Notes under the pieces: model-generated | What the model saw: the letters and a program-made list of their open reading frames with translations, nothing else | The model's database searches: none | What the model was told of the DNA's origin: nothing | Shown: in pieces, positions 34,501 through 45,927 of the stretch | How the letters are laid out: every line of letters begins with the position of its first letter | How positions within the stretch are numbered: the stretch's first letter is position 1 | Position numbers and translations under genes: made by a program | Assembly: GCF_002234675.1 (NCBI RefSeq) | Contig: NC_019867.2 | Span: forward strand, 1,878,001-1,942,000 | Reading direction: 5' to 3' | Length of the DNA: 64,000 bases | Origin: Oryzias latipes | Lineage: Eukaryota; Chordata; Actinopteri; Beloniformes; Adrianichthyidae

Positions 34501-37500
34501 TCAGAGACTGTGGAGTTCGATTCCTCTCCGTCTGAGAGCCGAACAGCTCAAGTCGGGTCTCGGAAAGTCGCTGCTCCAGAAAACAAACCTGAAACGAGCA
34601 AACGATCGTGTCAAAATAAAAGCATCTGGTTCTCTTCTGTGAAGACGGATCATTTGCAGCTGAAGGTTCCTGCGTGTGAAACCCTTCAAAGCTGACGGGT
34701 CACAGCAGGAGTTACACGGGTCCGACTGTGGAACAAAAAAGGGACTTTGAGTGCAGCATCAACGTTTGCTCCACTTCTGCCGGGCAGAAGAACATCTCAG
34801 ACGCTGAGACACCGTTATAGAACATTTCCCAGTTTGAAAGTCTCTAGGAACGACAAGTTTCTCTGCAAAAAAAACAATTTTCAAAAAGTAAAAAAGAAAA
34901 ACTCAAGATAAATTGTCTTGAAACAAAAAATTATCTTATCAAAAAATGTAAAAAAAACAAATAAAATAAGTTTAATTTCAAAATGTGATTTAGTGACTAT
35001 AATTTGTTTTCTGAAAAATAAAAATTCTTGACTCATTTAAGGACCCACTCCAATGAAAATCAAGTTTTGGTTGTTTTTAATATGTTCTTTTCTCATTATG
35101 GACAACAAATATTAAGAAAATTAGGCCCAAAGTTGCATTTCTGAGCATTTTTGAATTAAAATAGTTCTTAATCAGGAGCAGACGAACAATTCTGTTGGAA
35201 AAAGCCTGTGTAGCTACAATCTGTGGGCCACAAGCTTCAAGCTCCGCCCCTTTCTGATCATCCACCTGCAGACAAATAGATCCATGAACATCTTTTGGAA
35301 TCCGGATCAGAACTGGACGCCTGGATGGATCTGATACTGCTGCCATTTTTGTTGCACCGGTAATGTTAGGTTTGAGGTGTGAGGGGCTGTAAGCTAGCAG
35401 GAGAGGGTGTAAACAAAGGGATGATGGGAAATGAGTGCAGGCTCACTCCACACAAATGGACCCGCCCACATTGAACTCCCGCTGCTCTGCAGGAGCTATG
35501 TCCTAAAAAAACTCTAATGTTAAGAACGTTTGAAGTGTTTCTAAGGGGCCGGTTTGCAGCGTGACACACATGCTTCCTCGCTTTCAGCGTCTAAAATTCA
35601 TTCAGTCGCCGTGTTTCCACTTGCAGCTGCAGATACATCCCATAATAAAGAACATTTTCTATTCACCTTCTCTCTAAAGCAGGACAGCGCCGACTCCAGC
35701 TCACTCGTTTGATGTCTGTGCCGCGACGTCTGCCTCTCTGCCAGCTTCCTGAGGAACAAAAGACATTTCAGGGCTTTTCCATCCACATGTTCTCACTGCA
35801 CACTTTGCTGAGGAAGACTAATGAATCGGACAAATCCGAGCCCAGGCTCCCCTGACCTCAGCTGCTCCATCTTGATGGACAGGCGTACGCTGCTGTCCTT
35901 GGTGGAGCTCAGTCTGTGGCTCAGCGTCGCCACCTCCTGGCCAAGGCCTGAAATCAGCTCTTGAATCCTATAACGCAGGGGTGTCAAACTCATTTTCACC
36001 GAGGGCCACGTCAGCATAGCAGTTGTCCTCAAAGGGCCGGATATGACTTATACATTCAACTACATGTAATGAAAAATAAACGTAACTACTCCTTAATGTT
36101 AAACAACTAGTTTATTTATTTATTATAACTTTTTAAAGTGACAATTACAGTTGCATAGAAAAACATATGTTTGCTTTTTCCTCTAGGATAAATCCTTTTA
36201 CATTTGATTCTGTCAGGTTAGGTTATACGGACAGTGTTTGAATTGTAATGTATAGTTGACCAATCCCATATTTCAAGTCAGATTCCACCTAGATATGAAT
36301 AAGTACACACCACTTTTTATTTTAAGAAATGAAAAACTGTTATGCTCTCGGGGGCCACATAAAATGACATGGAGGGCCACATTTGGCCCCCGGGCCTTGA
36401 CTTTGACACATGTGCTATAACGGGTGTGGAAATAAAGCTTTATGATGGCGGATTGTTAGAATAGCTTAATGTTGCAGCAGCGTTTGAGAGGATTACATTA
36501 GATGCCTAAAAAAGAAAACAAAAACCACGTCAGGCGAGGCGAGTGAGACGTCACCAACGCCACCAGAAAGTCTGCAAATAAATAACCAAAGGAATCAAAA
36601 ACCTAAAAAACTCAGGTGACCGTTAAATTAACTTTGAATCGACTCATTTGACCAAATATCTAACATTTTTTTATTTATGAGGACGTGATATTTAAAGGAA
36701 GATGAGCTTAAAACACTGATGTAATCATTGAGGGCAGGCATGTCCCAAGTCCGGCTCGTGGGCCGAATTCAAATTTCTACCGGCCCACAGGTTGCTGTCA
36801 ATCAATGATGTGCTAAAAACTTTGTGTTTGATTTCGTGACGCTGCTGCTTAATTCCATCATTAGCCGCTGTAAATCTGCTGTTGCAGGAGCCTTCAGAAA
36901 TGTCTGCCGTGAACCAAAGGAACAGATCGGTTTCTCGGGCCGGAACCAGAATTTACCGTGTGATAAGGAAACCGTTTGCTTGTTTTTTCCGTTCACGTGT
37001 TTTACAGCCTATGTGACATTTCATGTCAGCCCAGATTTTATGTTGGCAACTTTTCTTTTTTTCAGACAGACTTTTTTATATATTCTAAAAATGTTTTTGG
37101 ACGCATTTCACTTCTATGTTTAGTAATGAAAAAAATCCCATTTGGAAACATTTTTACTGTAGGAAACATTATTATAGAGTTAAAGAAATGATGGGATGGT
37201 CACAGAGTGAATTCTCTACCGTTTAGTCCAGTATTTGTGCTTTTTTTCTAGAAACTAGAGCTGAAAGTTACAAAGATCTGGTTTTGACATGTTGTTAATG
37301 TTTTACTGGTTTAATAAAGGTATAAAGGAAAAAGGACAAACAGGGCCAGAACTGAACAGAATGGAACGGTACCGTTCTTGATGGTTTAGTTCTCTGTGTT
37401 CTTCACTCTCTGGTTGCTTTTCAAGCTTCAATGAAACAACAGAACAGGAGATTACAGGTCTTTGACCTCATTTAACTGCAGTTAAATGATCTTCAGGAGG

Positions 37501-40108
37501 TTGAACACTCACTGAAACCCCGTCCTCCTCCAAAGCGTCCTTTAGACGGGGGTGGGTTCTGTTTCCACGCGGCGCCTCCCACAGACGCTGGCACGCCTCC
37601 TTCAGCGTTTGCTCCAGAGATTCAACTGTCCGGCGAAGAGCCGTCGCCTCTTCTTCCGTCTCCTGGAGCTTCTGGCTCACAGATCTTTTGATGCTCTGAA
37701 CGTCTTCCAGCATCTGGAGCATCTGTTCCATTTGGTCGACGTTTTTCCTGGAATCCTTCAATCTAAAAGTGACAAACTGCGTTTAACGTCACGGACCTGA
37801 CTTATGGACAGAAGAGCCATCCGTGCTAACCTGAGGTCAGACAGCAAATCCTTTTCCATCTGAGCTTCATGAGGCTTTTCCTGCAGGTTCGTGATTTCTC
37901 TGTGAGAAAGACTTCTGCTTGTTTTTCCCACTTGAAGTGAAACAGAAAACTATGGGAAAAGACAGAATTCAGAAAACTGTTGATGACATTTATTTCTGTC
38001 AGACCTGGAATGAAGGACCAGACTATTGCCACACTTCTTCTTCTTCTGTCTTCCTGCGCCTTTGAGCAAAAATGGACGCTCACCTAGTAAACGTTTCTGA
38101 CACCGTGAAACACCCAAGGAAAAAAAGAAAATAAGCGATGACATCACGGTGCGAGAAACTGTCAAAGAAACAAACTCAAAAAATAGCTCAAAACCCACAA
38201 ATGAAACCAAAACACACACAAGTCGGAGATATCCGAAGACAGCTTTCAAACTATTATGGGATGGCCAGGGGACTTTTGTCTTGGTGGTCATTTTAGGTGA
38301 AATTTGGTGACCTTCACATTTTTTTCCACAATATAGGAAAAGGAACATTTTTGTTTGAGCAATCTTCACAAAATTTTACCCACGTCACCAGACGAAGTCC
38401 ACAACCACAACCCAAGTTTGTTGACCTTTGACCTCAGGAAGAGGCCACCATCTGGAATTTTCAAAATAAAATAAAAATCACCTTTAGTACCTTCTATAAA
38501 CGTAAACTCCTCCATGGGATTTTGATCCTATGGTCTCCTAACTCTTTGAGGATCACTGAGAAGATATTTGGGGATCTTTGCAGATTTTTGAACGTGGTTA
38601 GTGTGGCGACCTCGTAAAAGTGGCGCTCGCCTTTTGCTCGGATATTTTTTTACTGGAATATTGTGAAAATATGTTACAAAAATTCCTGGATCAAGCTGAA
38701 AGAAACAGTATAAACATAAAATATGAAAATATTAGGAACGTGGGCGGGGTTAACAAAAAACCTCTGTTGCCAAGGAAACCCAAAAGTTTACTTTTGCCGA
38801 TTGTCCTAAAAATGACATCGACCTGTTTGTCACCCGCAGGCAACCAAAACAGAAATTAGTTGCTATGGAGACAAAACTAAACTAAACTAAATATGGACCT
38901 TGTTGAAATCAGAAAACTGTTGAAGACGCTCGTCCACTGGATCCATTCTGAAGGAGCCTCCTTCTTTGAGGGGCCCCTCCTGGTTCCAAGGAGGAGTCAG
39001 AGGCTCCTGAAGGGCTGAAAGACTGCCTGAAGCTTCAGATGAGTCGTCTGCCAAAAGAGCAAAAAGCTTTAAAAAGATATTGTTTCTGTGAGAAAGGTTG
39101 GTGCAAAAAGCTACAAGGAAGCTTCTGTATTTCCACAAAAATGTGAATTAGCAGACATTTTTACTGCAAATAATACATTTTTCTGGCTGTAACAGAACTT
39201 ATGGACGGTATTTTTTTCTTTAACTATAGTCAGCGCATCTGTTTTATCATGACTAGCACTAACCATGGCAGACAGTCTGTGCAGGCGAGCATTTTCTGTA
39301 AGTGCAGCCGAACTTCTCCAAGGCCTCCCTGGTTTCTGTTTCCACCTCCTCCTGGAGTCTCCGAGTTTCCTTTGTGCGTCTGTCAAGCTCCTCACTACAA
39401 AAACACAAGTTTGTGCAGCTGTCATTCTTTAAAGTTTTTTTTTTTTCTGCAAAGGTCGAGCATTAGGTCCACTCTGCCATCTGAAAGCCACAGCGTGTAT
39501 TTGCTGACATGTCTTCAGAGTTCAGTAGCTGCTTTACAAGCCAGCAACCAACTCCTGGAACTCCTGGACCGGTTGGTACTGGAAATCCAAGTCTCTGCGT
39601 TCTCCATATGAAAGTCTTGAGCTAACCTGTAGGCCACATGCAGTTTGGAGGTCTGAACTGCACAAATGACGGGGTTTGGTCACCAATACCTGGTGTAAGT
39701 GTGCACCCAAACTCTTCCACTTAGTTATATTATTACTGCCTGTGATAACATAAGGTAGATATTTTTCCACAGGACTTCTTGCACAAACAGCATTTTAAGT
39801 ATTGGATGTAATACATTGGCAAATAATCCTCTAATTATAAAAGAACATTCAAGGAGAATGATTTTTTCCATGGCTTAAAAAATGTTGTTTTTACCTCAGT
39901 TCATCCAGAGTCAGACTGTTGAATCCCAGCCCAAGAGATGCGCTCTGGGTTCCTGTGGAAAAGAGCTCTTCGGGTTAGCAAAGGATCATGGGAAAAACGT
40001 CATAACGTCTCTACACTTACCAACTTTAGCTCGTGTTTCCTCTTTCGGGTGAAAGTCAGAAAGAGAAAAGTCCGGTGCCAGGTCCAAACCCTGATCTCCG
40101 GATGACAT
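28535..40108 (-). CDS. ccdc158: Coiled-coil domain-containing protein 158-like, about 20 exons
   Basis: Long coiled-coil protein; the molecular role of the family is not established. Exons from the 5' end: 40021-40108, 39895-39952, 39264-39394, 38899-39047, 37831-37899, 37513-37762, 37373-37425, 35857-35967, 35667-35748, 34469-34588, 33951-34166, 33622-33891, 33427-33523, 32063-32215, 31883-31995, 31656-31814, 31358-31450, 29216-29338, 28717-28767, then the stop. About 800 aa against about 1113 in human. The call rests on human-like segments such as RHTLKTLEGADRQG and RLKLQHTLDLK and on synteny. Heptad-rich sequence dominates; the C-terminal part is Ser/Pro-rich. Unresolved: phases do not join between the fourth and fifth exons, where a microexon (for example 13 nt near 38090) or a missed exon is needed, and exon 18 may extend toward 28880. 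On the phase-0 reading the stop TGA is the first codon of the last exon. Confidence 0.82.
30830..31115 (+). repeat. Dispersed repeat with a polyadenylation-like tail, copy 1
   Basis: The part at about 31015-31115 (TGACCCTGATTTAGCT ... AATAAACCTGCTGAT ... GTCTGCCTGTTGTTGAGAC) matches, in inverse orientation, the segment at 47825-47945. It carries AATAAA. It could be the end of an LTR or another transposon; the class is not determined. It lies in a ccdc158 intron. Confidence 0.55.
35036..35512. repeat. Dispersed repeat family B, longest copy
   Basis: Begins GGACCCACTCCAATGAAAAT and ends AGCTATGTCCTAAAAAAAC. Inverted copies occur at about 42030-42305 and 53290-53525, which begin TAGGACATAGTTTC and run to GCATTTTTATC/CATTTTCATC-type ends. 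End fragments lie near 4636 and 19205. No ORF. It sits in the ccdc158 intron between the exons at 34588 and 35667. Confidence 0.6.
35976..36414. mobile_element. hAT MITE inserted at a ccdc158 splice acceptor
   Basis: The left end is CAGGGGTGTCAAACTC and the right end is TTGACTTTGACACATGTG, an imperfect inverted pair, with GGGCCACA/GGGCCGG words inside as in other vertebrate Charlie-type hAT MITEs. Perfect 8-bp target duplications CTATAACG flank it at 35968-35975 and 36415-36422. The left duplication holds the AG of the 3' splice site of the ccdc158 exon that starts at 35967 (minus strand). Confidence 0.88.
38130..38880 (+). repeat. Long dispersed repeat, copy in ccdc158 intron
   Basis: Shares ordered landmarks with the inverse of about 60050-60690: GATGACATCAC, TTGACCTTTGACCTCAGGAA, ACCTCTGTTGCCAAGGAAA, ACATCGACCTGT and TTGCTATGGAGA. 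The copy holds no intact gene. The family is unknown to me. Confidence 0.65.
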
Positions 40109-40540: not shown

Positions 40541-41062
40541 CGTCGACGTAAAGATGATTTAATGATGTTCGGAACCTTTTCGAGGCGGTTCGGGTGTTTC
40601 ACACGACGGAAGCGTCTCGGCGAGGTAAACCGAGAGGAGCGGATCTGTCTGTCCACTGAGGCTAGCATGCTAGCTAGCTAGCTAAGCCAGGACACATACC
40701 TGTCTGTCTGGGCTTCACATTGATTCTATTTCTACATTACATTGTTAATGCAAAGAACCTTTTCGAAACAACGTCATCAATTATGAAGCTTCGGAGAATT
40801 TAGTCTTTAAGCTAAAGGATAAAAAATTTCTGACTGGAGTCACATTTTCTTTCTTGCATATTTTCCACACACGTCAGTTTTTGTCTGGAAACCAGCATCA
40901 TGTCTGCATACATACATGTGTTTACAGTCTGAGGTCAGCTGGTGATTGACCCCTACCCAGCTTGGACTCAAACGGTCACGTGGGCTCATCTCCTCAGCCT
41001 ATAAGAATCATTTTTTGGTGACATTTCTCGTTGTTTTTCTTTGTGTGTGGCTGTTCTCCAGG

Positions 41063-44000
41063 ATGAGGGATCTTCCTGGCATTGACAGTTTGCTCTTAAA
41101 AAAGCTGAAGGTATGTTGTGCCAAAGAGGACAGCGTTCTCCCCAGAGAGACGGGCCTGAAGCTGATGGAGTCCACTCCTGCAGAGGTGACCTACTTTTGC
41201 TTCACGTCTTTCTCTATTTCTTGCAGTGGTATAAATATGTTTCCATGTCCCCTCCGCCCAAAGAACTCCAGTGGGGTGTCTGCAAAGTGCCGGGACAGCC
41301 GGGTGGAGGAACTGTGGGGCCTGACCACTTTCTTTGGCTACAGCACCCAAACCTTTGTCCAAGCTGTCAATTTGCTTGACAGATTTCTCACCTTGATGAA
41401 GGTAACAAAACCTCTGGCAGTCTGTAACTCTGTGACTCTGTTTTGAATCTTAAAATCCATCACTTTGTCACTTCTGATAGAGTTTAGATGTCAAGTTACT
41501 ATTTATACATGCTTTTAATCCATGAACCTATTTGCCCTTTAAAGGATTTTAGCACAAGTGGTTCTAAAGTGCAAAGCGTCAATAGAATAGAATAAAATGC
41601 TTTTATTGTTGTTATTATACATAGCATAGTGACATTTGAAAATGGTCACAAGACAGTTTGGACGTCACTGATTGGATGATGACATTTGTTCACCTTAACA
41701 GGAGGTTATTTGTCATAGCGTTGTCTTCAATGGAAGATATTTCGTGGAGCTTCTGGCCACGCCCACTGCAACAGTTCAGTGATTGATGTATTAACCGTTT
41801 GGAGAATAACCTCCTTCAGTTTTTACTCTATTTCAAAACCTTTTTCATGTTTCTTATTTTGTTTCATTTATTTTTTACAGTTTAGTTTGATTTCTAAGGA
41901 ACCCCTGAAGGGAAAAAAATTGTAACAATTATTTTTTTTGTTTTGGTTTCTAAAATGTAATGTTGTTTTATTTCTTTTCAAAGCGTTCCCAGTGTTTTTT
42001 TTAATTACGATGATGCCGTTTTTAGCCAAAATCTAAAAAAAAAACAACCTTTTTCTAGGACATAGTTTCTGCAGAGCGGTAGGAGTTCATTAGAAATTCA
42101 CCTCTAAGTTGTGGCCGCGATGTCGGCATGTAATAACCCCGCCCCCTTCGTCTGCGCGGGCTCTTGCGGCGTATTTTCTTCGTCACAAATACGATCTGAA
42201 TGAAGACATACTCTCAAATGCAATTTTTATCGTAATTTTCTTTATAGGTGTCCATCATTAGAAAAAGGCAACAAAAAGAAACACAATTTTCCTCTTTAAA
42301 GTGTTTAAGTGTTGAGTGATTTGTTGTTGTAATTTGTACTTCTGGGCCACCGTAGCTTTAGGAGTGCTAAAGTTCATGAACTCAAAACTAGGATAGGAAA
42401 ATAACCTGGACAGGGAAAATCCATAAAGTAGTCATCTATATGTTTTACACTAACTGTAGATTTTTGAAACTCTTCGTTACACATTTTCACTTTTCTCTTT
42501 GTTTAAACTCTCAAAGTTCAGACACAAGTCCAGGATTATAGAATTAAAACAGAGATCTGATCGGGACGAAGATTTCTAATTTGTTAAAATGAATACATTC
42601 TGTACAGGAGACATGGCACAGAGAAGCTTGATTGACAAGGTCGATAGCCAATCAGAATGCAGAGCAGAATGCTGTTGCAAAAGAAACATTGAAAACTGAA
42701 TTATGCCAAGCGGCGATATCATGAAAGGTGATTTCCATGTTTTTGGTGACAGGTGCAGCGCAAACACGTCCCCTGCATCGGAGTCTGCTGTCTTCACATG
42801 GCCGCCAAAATGATTGAGGAGGAGGCCGACGTCTCGCCGACCCACGAACTCATCCGCATCAGCCAAAGCAGGTTCACGGTGTCGGACCTCAGCCGCATGG
42901 AGAAGATCATCTCGGAGAAACTGTGCCTGGATCCCAAAGCGGTGACGGCCTTGACCTTCCTGCAGCTTTACCACTCCGCCATCGCCTCCCAGTCTGCCGG
43001 CAGGTACGCGTCTCCTCCTTCCAGCTGCTGTTGGAACGTTGTCCCGCTTTGCACTGAGCTGGTCAAACAGGTTGTTCTTTATGAGGTCTGTACGGCGGAT
43101 CACGTAAAGTTCCCCTATATATTTGAAGGGAGGAGATCCCAAGCATTGGGAGACTGGAAGCCCAGCTTAAAGCCTGTTTATGCCGGCTTGTTTTCTCTAA
43201 AGCAAAAGTAAGAATTGTTCTCAGGTGACATTTTGTCAGCTTTGCTGCATTCGCTGACCGTCCGGGAGCTGACGCAGCCCTTCCTTCTCCCCGTCTTCTC
43301 AGCCGTCGGTGTTGGCGCTGTCGCTCGTCGCTCAGGAGTTTGAGTCGTTCTCGGTGATGAAGACTGTCCAACAGTTTCAAAAGCATCTAAAAGTAGGTTT
43401 TCTCTGGAGATTTGTTTCCGCGTTCGGCGATTCATTTCACGTTTTCACTCTCGGCTGTTTCCTGTCGACTCTGCAGATCAGCGACGCTGAGCTGCTCGGA
43501 TGGAAGGAGCTGGTGGCCGAGTGCATGAGCGCCTACCACTCCAGCCAATGCAGCAAACCGGACAACAAAAAGCTGGTTTGGATTGTGTCCAGGAGAACCG
43601 CCCAGGGCCTTCAGAGCTGTCACTTCAGCGTTCCCGCTCTGCCGACCATTCCTGAGAGGAGCTGGAACCAGAGCCAAAGGTTTGGAGTCTGAGCGTTCAT
43701 TCCTCCCTTTTCCTTTTCCGGAGATCGTTTCTATTTCATTTGTATCCGTTTCTTTTACCCTAATATTGATTCATTAGTTAAAAAAACAAGTTTGTGTGAT
43801 TTTCTACACTGCAGGACACAAAAACGCTCTAGTCCTTAGTGAGGTGGGAGTACTGGCTCCTTACTAACCGCACGCAAACGCTGCACGGGGTGTGCAGCGG
43901 GGTGTGCACGTGATGAGCAAACGCTCCTTTCCCTTCCATGTTGCATTAGTGTTCCGTCCAACATGACCGTAGAAATAAATGTACATGAAGGTTTTCTCTT

Positions 44001-44638
44001 AGTGGTCAACCAGCTCTGTGTGTGTGTGTGTGGGGGGGGGGGGGGGGTGTCACCTGTGTGCCCCGCACAGGCTTGCCCATTTTTCCTGTGTCCACCCATA
44101 AGAACAGTTGGTTCTAAAGTCTGCTTTTAAAGGGTTAAGCGTGCTGTGATACAGTTTCAGCTCAGGATTTGATCGCAGAGAGGTTCATGTCCCAGAAATA
44201 TTTTTAAAAAACTTTGGTTTTCTGGAGCCTGAGTCGGATCTTAAACTGGCTCATGAAAATATTCAGGAAGACAAATGTTTGTTGAAGGATCTCGTCTGCA
44301 TCCAGACTTTGAACGGACTGATGCAGAAGCAGAACCGGGCCTTCCTCCTGCTGTGATCCAGATCTAGAACTCTGCGTCAGAAACACACGAATTGATCCTC
44401 GTTTTAGCAAAACTGTTGGGTTTTGTATAAAGTGCGTACTTGTGATTTTACGTAACTAATTGAATCAAGTTAAGAGACAGATGGCGAGGGCGGGTCTTAA
44501 CTGAGTTATGATGTGTTGCCTTACAGCGAGGACTCGGGCGAGGACACGAGCTGCTCTGAGGAAAGTCCATGCGGTTCCTTAGGAAGCGACGGCGAAGGAA
44601 CCTTCTTCCCCTCCAGCTTCCACCACAGCCGAGACTGA
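41063..44638 (+). CDS. ccng2: Cyclin G2, 7 coding exons
   Basis: Unconventional cyclin linked to growth arrest and stress responses; it works in nucleus and cytoplasm. Exons: 41063-41185, 41264-41401, 42753-43003, 43129-43207, 43303-43392, 43477-43679, 44527-44638. Phases all agree and give 331 aa (human 344). The cyclin box spans about residues 45-190, with VNLLDRFLTLMK, CIGVCCLHMAAKMIEEE, RISQ and MEKIISEKL, then RLEAQLKAC and KKLVWIVSRRTAQGL, all close to CCNG2. The C-terminus is Ser/Glu/Asp-rich, like a PEST region. The 79-nt exon at 43129 restores RLEAQLKAC, which no long ORF contains. The small first intron (78 nt) is a multiple of three and has no stop in frame. CCNG2 fits better than CCNG1 or CCNI in my comparison; synteny with ccdc158 agrees. 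Confidence 0.93.
42030..42305 (-). repeat. Dispersed repeat family B copy in ccng2 intron
   Basis: Carries AGGACATAGTTTCTGCAGAG and CCCCGCCCCCT-type landmarks shared with 53290-53525 and, inverted, with 35036-35512. Non-coding. Confidence 0.55.
44020..44047. repeat. GT microsatellite followed by poly-G
   Basis: (GT)n runs directly into a run of G, in the last ccng2 intron. A further poly-G tract lies at about 45206-45219, beyond the gene. Confidence 0.85.
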
Positions 44639-45927
44639 TGGGAGTTTTTCCATTTCCTGGAATTATAACATTTTTAGCAGAGACGTGTGCGTTTTGTGTG
44701 CATGTGTTGTGTGTCATCTTAGGTGTGTAAAAGCGGACTGAAGTGTGGATTGTTGGACATCAAAGGCCCATCTTCAAAATGTAAAGCAGAATATTTGCGT
44801 TACCGCGGCAGCCGGAATGTTTTTATTAAAGTCACTTTAAGGTGTTCTTCACACGAAGCACAAGAGGTCAAACACCAGATGCTCCGTAGTTTGTTTTTTG
44901 AAGCCCGTTTTCTATTTACATCTAACAGTATTCTGCATATGGAAAATGTATGTTCTCACTAACATGACTCACCTGTGCTGCATATGATGGTACTGGACTG
45001 TAAATGCATGCAAATGTTGAAACATATTCATGTTTATGGTCAAAAACCCCTCTAGAAAAATCAAATAACTTGTAAAATAATAAAAATGTGTATGTTTGGG
45101 ATGCTGTTTATCGTGCTTAACAGAAAGTATGTGGGAAGCTCAAACTTCAAAATAAAAGTCTTTTACATTTGTCGTTTTATTTTTCTATCAGTCAGAAATA
45201 GAGCGGGGGGGGGGGGGGTAGTGAGAATGGGCGTCACGTGTTATTCCTAAATCCACACGTTTTTTTCTTATAATATTGATAACAATACAACAGAGTTAAT
45301 TCTCAGGGAGGATTGAAATGTGTACAAATTGCAGAAAAAGTAAAAAATACAATATTTATAGACATAATTACAATATGAGAAAAGATTACATCAATCCAAT
45401 AACCGCTGGGGTTTAAAAAAACGTTTCAAATTAGTTCGAATTGCCTTTTGGTTTTGAAATTGTTTAATAATTAACAGGACTGATTGGTTTCATTCTAGGT
45501 TTGAATTTAGACCATTTGGCTTTATGAATATGGAATTTTGCTAATAATAAAAACAACTGTGTAATAAAGATAATATCTTTGTCTAATTTACCAGGAAAAT
45601 ATCTTTATACAAAAATGGAGTAGTTTTTTTAAGTTATATTTCCAATATAATTTCCCACTAAATCCACAAGTGCGTCCGTCTTGTTGGCGGCCGCGCGCGC
45701 GCGCTCGGATGCGCAGGAAGGGGGCGGGGCTCGGCGGTGTTGACACGCATCTGCTCCACCTGCAGTCTGGAGGCTGGTCGCCGGAGAGTGGCGGGAATGA
45801 GACGGAGCAGAGGCTCGGCATCGTCAACATGCAGACCCCGAAAAGGGCCTCGTGAGCCGAACCGACCGGGACCAGCCCAGCCGACGCCTCCACGCTGTCA
45901 CGCGCCACATACCGACAGGCCCCCAAG
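44639..45927. other. ccng2 3' UTR and short intergenic spacer
   Basis: AATAAA at 45151-45156, about 510 bp after the ccng2 stop, is the best polyadenylation signal. From about 45670 the sequence becomes GC-rich with an alternating GC tract (CCGCGCGCGCGCG), consistent with a CpG promoter for the next gene at 45928. No other gene is seen. Confidence 0.6.

Follow-up and report, generated by a model that had tools for sequence, protein, structure and literature searches.

A hAT MITE inserted exactly on the 3' splice site of ccdc158 exon 8, with duplication of the acceptor

Transposons in splice sites

The kind of event described here is already known, and its nearest case is, by our comparison, the merle SINE at the intron 10/exon 11 boundary of canine PMEL. 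The passages of the source that deal with this insertion describe a 15-bp target duplication that includes the original acceptor, and state that splicing can use this acceptor or a different one (PMC7349775). As far as that description goes, ccdc158 resembles PMEL in having a transposon in the 3' splice site and the acceptor within the target duplication. The two cases nevertheless differ: merle is a retroposed SINE that brings a long poly-T tract, carries a cryptic acceptor of its own and has a coat phenotype, whereas the ccdc158 insertion is a cut-and-paste MITE without a poly-T tract and without a known phenotype. A second parallel is offered by introners derived from DNA transposons, which, in the account given in PMC9860276, recruit splice-site nucleotides from the target duplication, as seems to have happened here. 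Introners create new introns, while the ccdc158 MITE lengthens an existing one and replaces its 3' end only; in our gene model, the element extends a pre-existing intron 7, and no intron was newly created. The element itself is comparable to Mar, a Drosophila hAT MITE of the Buster type, with which it shares its non-coding nature, CAG... terminal repeats, and 8-bp duplications of the form nnnTAnnn (PMC3517528). Host and element are different, and the description of Mar in that source tells of a small region within a predicted coding sequence but of no splice-site copy. Among the titles listed for ccdc158 (medaka; testis or sperm), for target duplications, acceptors and transposons, and for Buster target duplications, none names this locus. 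The ccdc158 insertion is a finding of ordinary size and brings no new mechanism.

The element, its family and its target site

The window, a stretch of 64,000 nucleotides from Oryzias latipes (C9:1878001–1942000), contains a MITE that starts with CAGGGGTGTCAAACTC and ends with TTTGACACATGTG and is flanked by two copies of CTATAACG, identical at 8 of 8 positions (Table 1). The exon-side copy, read on the minus strand, gives CGTTATAG followed directly by GATTCAAGAG, and the final dinucleotide before 35967, where exon 8 begins, is AG. The MITE insertion is placed exactly on the 3' splice site of ccdc158 exon 8, and the acceptor is duplicated. The sequence-only reading had proposed a hAT MITE of this size whose target duplication supplies the acceptor AG, with MITE sequence as the new upstream context of the exon-proximal acceptor and the original pyrimidine tract staying with the other copy of the duplication, 447 nt upstream; all of this is borne out here. 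The terminal inverted repeats of the MITE are of the CAG type, short and imperfect, with 12 of 16 terminal positions matching. The element is non-coding: stop-to-stop frames overlapping it reach at most 60 aa, except for an 84-aa frame that extends into exon 8. AATAAA occurs four times on its minus strand.

Table 1. Features of the ccdc158 intron 7/exon 8 region (positions in the window)
Feature	Position	Strand	Description
hAT (Buster-type) MITE	35976..36414	-	439 bp; left (CAGGGGTGTC) end toward exon 8
Exon-side target duplication CGTTATAG	35968..35975	-	carries the proximal acceptor AG
Distal target duplication CGTTATAG	36415..36422	-	duplicated AG, original pyrimidine tract still upstream
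Original 3' splice-site region	36423..36464	-	CTAAC branch-point match and pyrimidine tract; now adjoins the distal AG
MITE end, proposed branch-point/pyrimidine region of exon 8	35976..36011	-	CTGAC at -44, TTGAC at -17
ccdc158 exon 7	37373..37425	-	53 nt; weak donor ACG/gtaccg
ccdc158 exon 8	35857..35967	-	111 nt, phase 2-2
ccdc158 exon 9	35667..35748	-	82 nt
In-frame TGA, reached from the distal acceptor	36273..36275	-	inside the MITE
Candidate MITE cassette exon	36311..36414	-	104 nt; distal AG to donor GTG/gtgtgt, score 6.58

The genome (734,051,031 bases in 25 contigs) was searched for copies of the MITE. Of the 2288 candidates from the first look, most remained unscored; the scored matches numbered 40, the window copy included, and the other 39 showed 88–93% identity. 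Thirty-nine of the 40 were analysed, the excluded one (L044) having a start that did not align. Duplications identical at 8 of 8 positions at these exact boundaries were found in 35 of the 39 copies, the window copy included; the remaining ones matched at 7 of 8 (L025 and L033), 6 of 8 (L040) and 3 of 8 (L039) positions. As 34 of the 38 other copies have perfect 8-bp duplications at the same boundaries, the duplication is a real insertion footprint. The dinucleotide TA occupies positions 4–5 in 35 of the 37 duplications with at least 7/8 identity, L040 and L039 being dropped from this count, and these 35 fit the target consensus nnnTAnnn given for Buster elements in PMC3517528. Judged by its TA-centred duplications, the family carries a Buster-type hAT signature.

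How exceptional such a landing is may be estimated from the roughly 200,000 introns in 734 Mb. With this number, about one insertion in 3,700 should have a duplication whose end coincides to the base with an acceptor AG on the sense strand, which makes roughly one such landing per MITE family before selection, if the family size is near 2288 (a rough figure, as only 40 copies were scored). Since about one landing is expected by chance, the coincidence is no sign of targeting. The notable point is the tolerance of the insertion, not the coincidence. A target duplication can make a splice-site insertion survivable, since an AG remains next to the exon regardless of the sequence inserted before it.

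The exon 8 boundary and its two upstream contexts

The ccdc158 model on the minus strand comprises 17 exons from the ATG at 40108 to 31358, stopping short of the 3' end of the gene, and encodes 754 residues in an open frame with consistent phases. Its product matched Pfam PF15921 (CCDC158) in four stretches with 116.7 bits (E 1.1e-33, cut-off 27), while in the genome profile search single exons stayed below the cut-off, the best at 19.2 bits. Exon 7 consists of LEKQPESEEHRELNHQE plus CG, and this CG opens an arginine codon that is completed by the G at 35967. In the joined exons 7–10, residues 14–95 match profile positions 264–344, with one residue unmatched somewhere, and the stretch from R-I-Q-E-L-I-S onward (R-I-Q...E-K) matches positions 268–330, 63 residues to 63 positions. 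As residue 14 lies at profile position 264, the junction arginine falls at 268 and the homology spans the exon 7/exon 8 junction. These coordinates indicate that the profile match runs through the junction, and together with the phase this fixes the acceptor position at 35967 independently of splice scoring. Removal of exon 8 from exons 7–10 abolished the PF15921 match, and exon 8 alone gave no match to PF15921; in both searches, weak matches may be lost to filters. A direct junction of exons 6 and 8 was rejected, since the modelled exon 6 donor leaves phase 0 and exon 8 needs phase 2, a conflict that the 53-nt exon 7 resolves. Some of the human protein sequence lying between the stretches of exons 6 and 7 seems to lack a counterpart here.

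Two matrices were used for the scoring of acceptors, one derived from the 15 other ccdc158 acceptors and one generic. The proximal acceptor scored 0.28, the joined empty site 0.23 and the distal copy -3.12 with the gene-derived matrix, and 6.18, 5.71 and 3.90, respectively, with the generic one. The intronic bases of the distal copy and of the empty site are identical, and the lower distal score comes from exonic bases alone, so that on intronic context the two acceptors are nearly tied. Of the 15 other ccdc158 acceptors, 13 outscore the proximal one with the gene-derived matrix and 9 with the generic matrix. Leave-one-out scores of these 15 ranged from -1.15 to 9.06, and as 13 of them exceed 0.28, the exon 8 acceptor is weak now and was weak before the insertion. 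Among the 4056 minus-strand AGs of the window, 33% score at least as high as the proximal one with the gene-derived matrix and 6.3% with the generic matrix.

The two contexts also resemble each other in branch-point spacing and AG-free zone. For the branch-point motif yUnAy, the proximal acceptor has matches at -44 and -17 and the empty site at -42 and -19; the AG-free zone before the exon measures 21 nt vs 23 nt. An AG intervenes between the -44 match and the proximal acceptor, an arrangement also present in the empty site, and the -17 match sits near the exon. The pyrimidine fraction is 0.67 vs 0.72 at -20 to -3 and 0.52 vs 0.64 at -35 to -3. The weakened inclusion of exon 8 that had been predicted from the sequence is therefore unsupported by the scoring, in which the proximal acceptor does not fall below the empty site with either matrix, although it has fewer pyrimidines upstream. 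The MITE end at 35976–36011 differs from the consensus of the 38 other copies by one base, at 36010, a difference shared with 1 of the 38; this base closes the CTGAC match, and yUnAy would be satisfied by the consensus base as well. With a single differing base, the acceptor context is nearly unmodified MITE sequence.

The fit of this MITE end to its new place is a matter of mild luck and not of design, as 22% of 20,000 random window contexts drawn before CGTTATAG followed by G scored at least 6.18; 13% combined a score of at least 5.71 with a branch-point match in range. In the opposite orientation, the MITE would score 2.87 at this site and not 6.18. The idea of a portable acceptor, in which MITE ends would generally improve acceptors contained in the duplication, was ruled out by copy-wide scores (37 of the 39 copies). 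When duplication AGs were read outward from the left end of the element, the context supplied by the MITE equalled or exceeded that of the host in 13 of 29 cases (means 2.81 vs 2.92); for outward reading at the right end this held in 10 of 34 cases (means -1.61 vs 0.14).

Splicing of exon 8 after the insertion

The insertion of a Buster-type hAT MITE where intron 7 meets exon 8 duplicated the acceptor within the 8-bp target duplication and left an AG at the exact old boundary of exon 8, where it is seen today. The antisense left end of the MITE now stands in the branch-point/pyrimidine position, as the sequence shows, and would be used there in splicing. Given that the MITE context does no worse in scoring than the context it displaced, most transcripts probably still have exon 8 joined at 35967. 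The enlarged intron would be excised in one piece, the distal copy probably acting as a minor competitor, and the outcome would be an exon whose 3' splice-site region has been exchanged for transposon sequence. That the insertion is such a nearly neutral passenger, its end replacing the branch-point/pyrimidine region of exon 8 and the proximal acceptor being mostly used, has in our judgement an even balance of probability. A stronger statement is more doubtful, namely that the MITE end, with at most one base changed later, became the whole working branch-point/pyrimidine region in one step, and that the original region, now 447 nt away, either is no longer functional or leads into a poison MITE cassette exon. 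If this takeover were true, ccdc158 would hold a natural, base-exact swap of splice-site contexts at a conserved vertebrate exon. The locus is in any case a natural experiment on 3' splice-site choice, with identical acceptor octamers in original and in transposon context, 447 nt apart, serving the same exon.

The distal copy could also have a larger share. It retains the original branch-point match and the pyrimidine tract, it is the AG that scanning meets first, and on intronic bases alone its score matches that of the empty site. Splicing to it (at 36414) adds 447 nt, in frame, up to the TGA, as the sequence-only reading had worked out and as our translation confirmed. Under this reading of two competing acceptors, which the sequence-only reading had also predicted as an outcome, a substantial share of transcripts would end at the MITE stop and ccdc158 output would be lowered. 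Against it stand the lower score of the distal AG on both matrices, although through exonic bases only, and the resulting exon of 558 nt; exons of this length are long for exon definition. Translation from six acceptors (proximal, distal, 36505, 36571, 36288 and 36059) gave a stop-free continuation from the proximal one only, the stops being reached sooner from 36505, 36571, 36288 and 36059 than from 36414.

The state of the coding sequence speaks on the same matter. The 17 modelled exons contain no stops or frameshifts, an open chain that is partly built in, as some exon boundaries were picked to keep the frame. Neutral decay, as would be expected had the insertion killed the gene, was simulated at 1.6–4% with assumed indel ratios (1500 simulations per setting). 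Over all 17 exons, it yielded 4.6–14.8 disabling changes, with zero in at most 0.9% of runs, and over exons 9–17 2.7–8.8, with zero in at most 7.1% of runs at any setting. The absence of the expected disabling changes favours splicing that keeps the frame, either by proximal use or by in-frame skipping, two outcomes that the decay argument does not separate. Since exons 9–17 carry no decay, this also weighs against the two competing acceptors, a reading we hold to be possible but unlikely.

Skipping is the one other outcome, among the five alternative acceptors and skipping itself, that keeps the frame: exon 8 (111 nt, phase 2-2) can be omitted and the product stays open. Exon 8 might now be mostly skipped because intron 7 is weak at both ends, with an exon 7 donor scoring 2.8, the third lowest of 17, and 37 coiled-coil residues would then be lost in frame. 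The exon 8 donor is nevertheless ordinary (6.83), the proximal acceptor does not score below the empty site, and the disappearance of the Pfam CCDC158 match on removal of exon 8 suggests that skipping would cost conserved sequence. We consider predominant skipping quite improbable. Still further down we place a cassette within the MITE, in which the distal AG and a donor at 36311/36310 would delimit a frame-shifting poison exon and the proximal AG would end a second, MITE-internal intron. This donor, at 6.58, outscores 8 of the 17 modelled ccdc158 donors, and the duplicated AGs bracket the cassette; its distal acceptor is, however, weak, and the internal intron left over would be 343 nt long with a putative branch point. 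Such a cassette is most improbable.

The age of the insertion bears on whether it occurs only in the sequenced strain or has yet to reach fixation, a case that would be compatible with each of the other readings. One genome was examined, and this leaves room for such a case. The insertion is, however, not brand new. Of 438 sites compared, 32 set the window copy apart from the consensus of the other 38, mostly through differences that related copies have too; 6 substitutions and 1 insertion in 439 bp are private to it, present in none of the 38. Its terminal branch measures 0.032 (IQ-TREE) or 0.040 (FastTree), i.e., 3.2–4.0%, values that variation among source elements could inflate, making the insertion look older than its true age. 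Confinement to one strain or an unfixed state is, by this evidence, very unlikely.

Several further features were observed near the locus. At 36505–36530 on the minus strand, outside the MITE, lies a very strong acceptor-like site, gtttttgttttcttttttag followed by GCA, with a stop within a few codons. Its AG at 36505 tops the 89 AGs examined from the exon 7 donor to the exon 9 acceptor (scores of 13.78 and 12.92), and it is possibly an alternative or poison splice site. As it lies outside the MITE, the intron presumably held a decoy before the insertion. Upstream of the MITE in intron 7, the minus strand at 36725–37008 may contain another dispersed element (plus strand GGCAGGCATGTCCCAAGTCCGGC...); in a Pfam search of translations, 36725–36952 gave one match below the cut-off (E 0.07) and 36802–37008 none. 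Adjoining ccdc158, at about 41000–44700 on the plus strand, there is a cyclin-like coding region, which we take to be possibly ccng2, the human neighbour of ccdc158.
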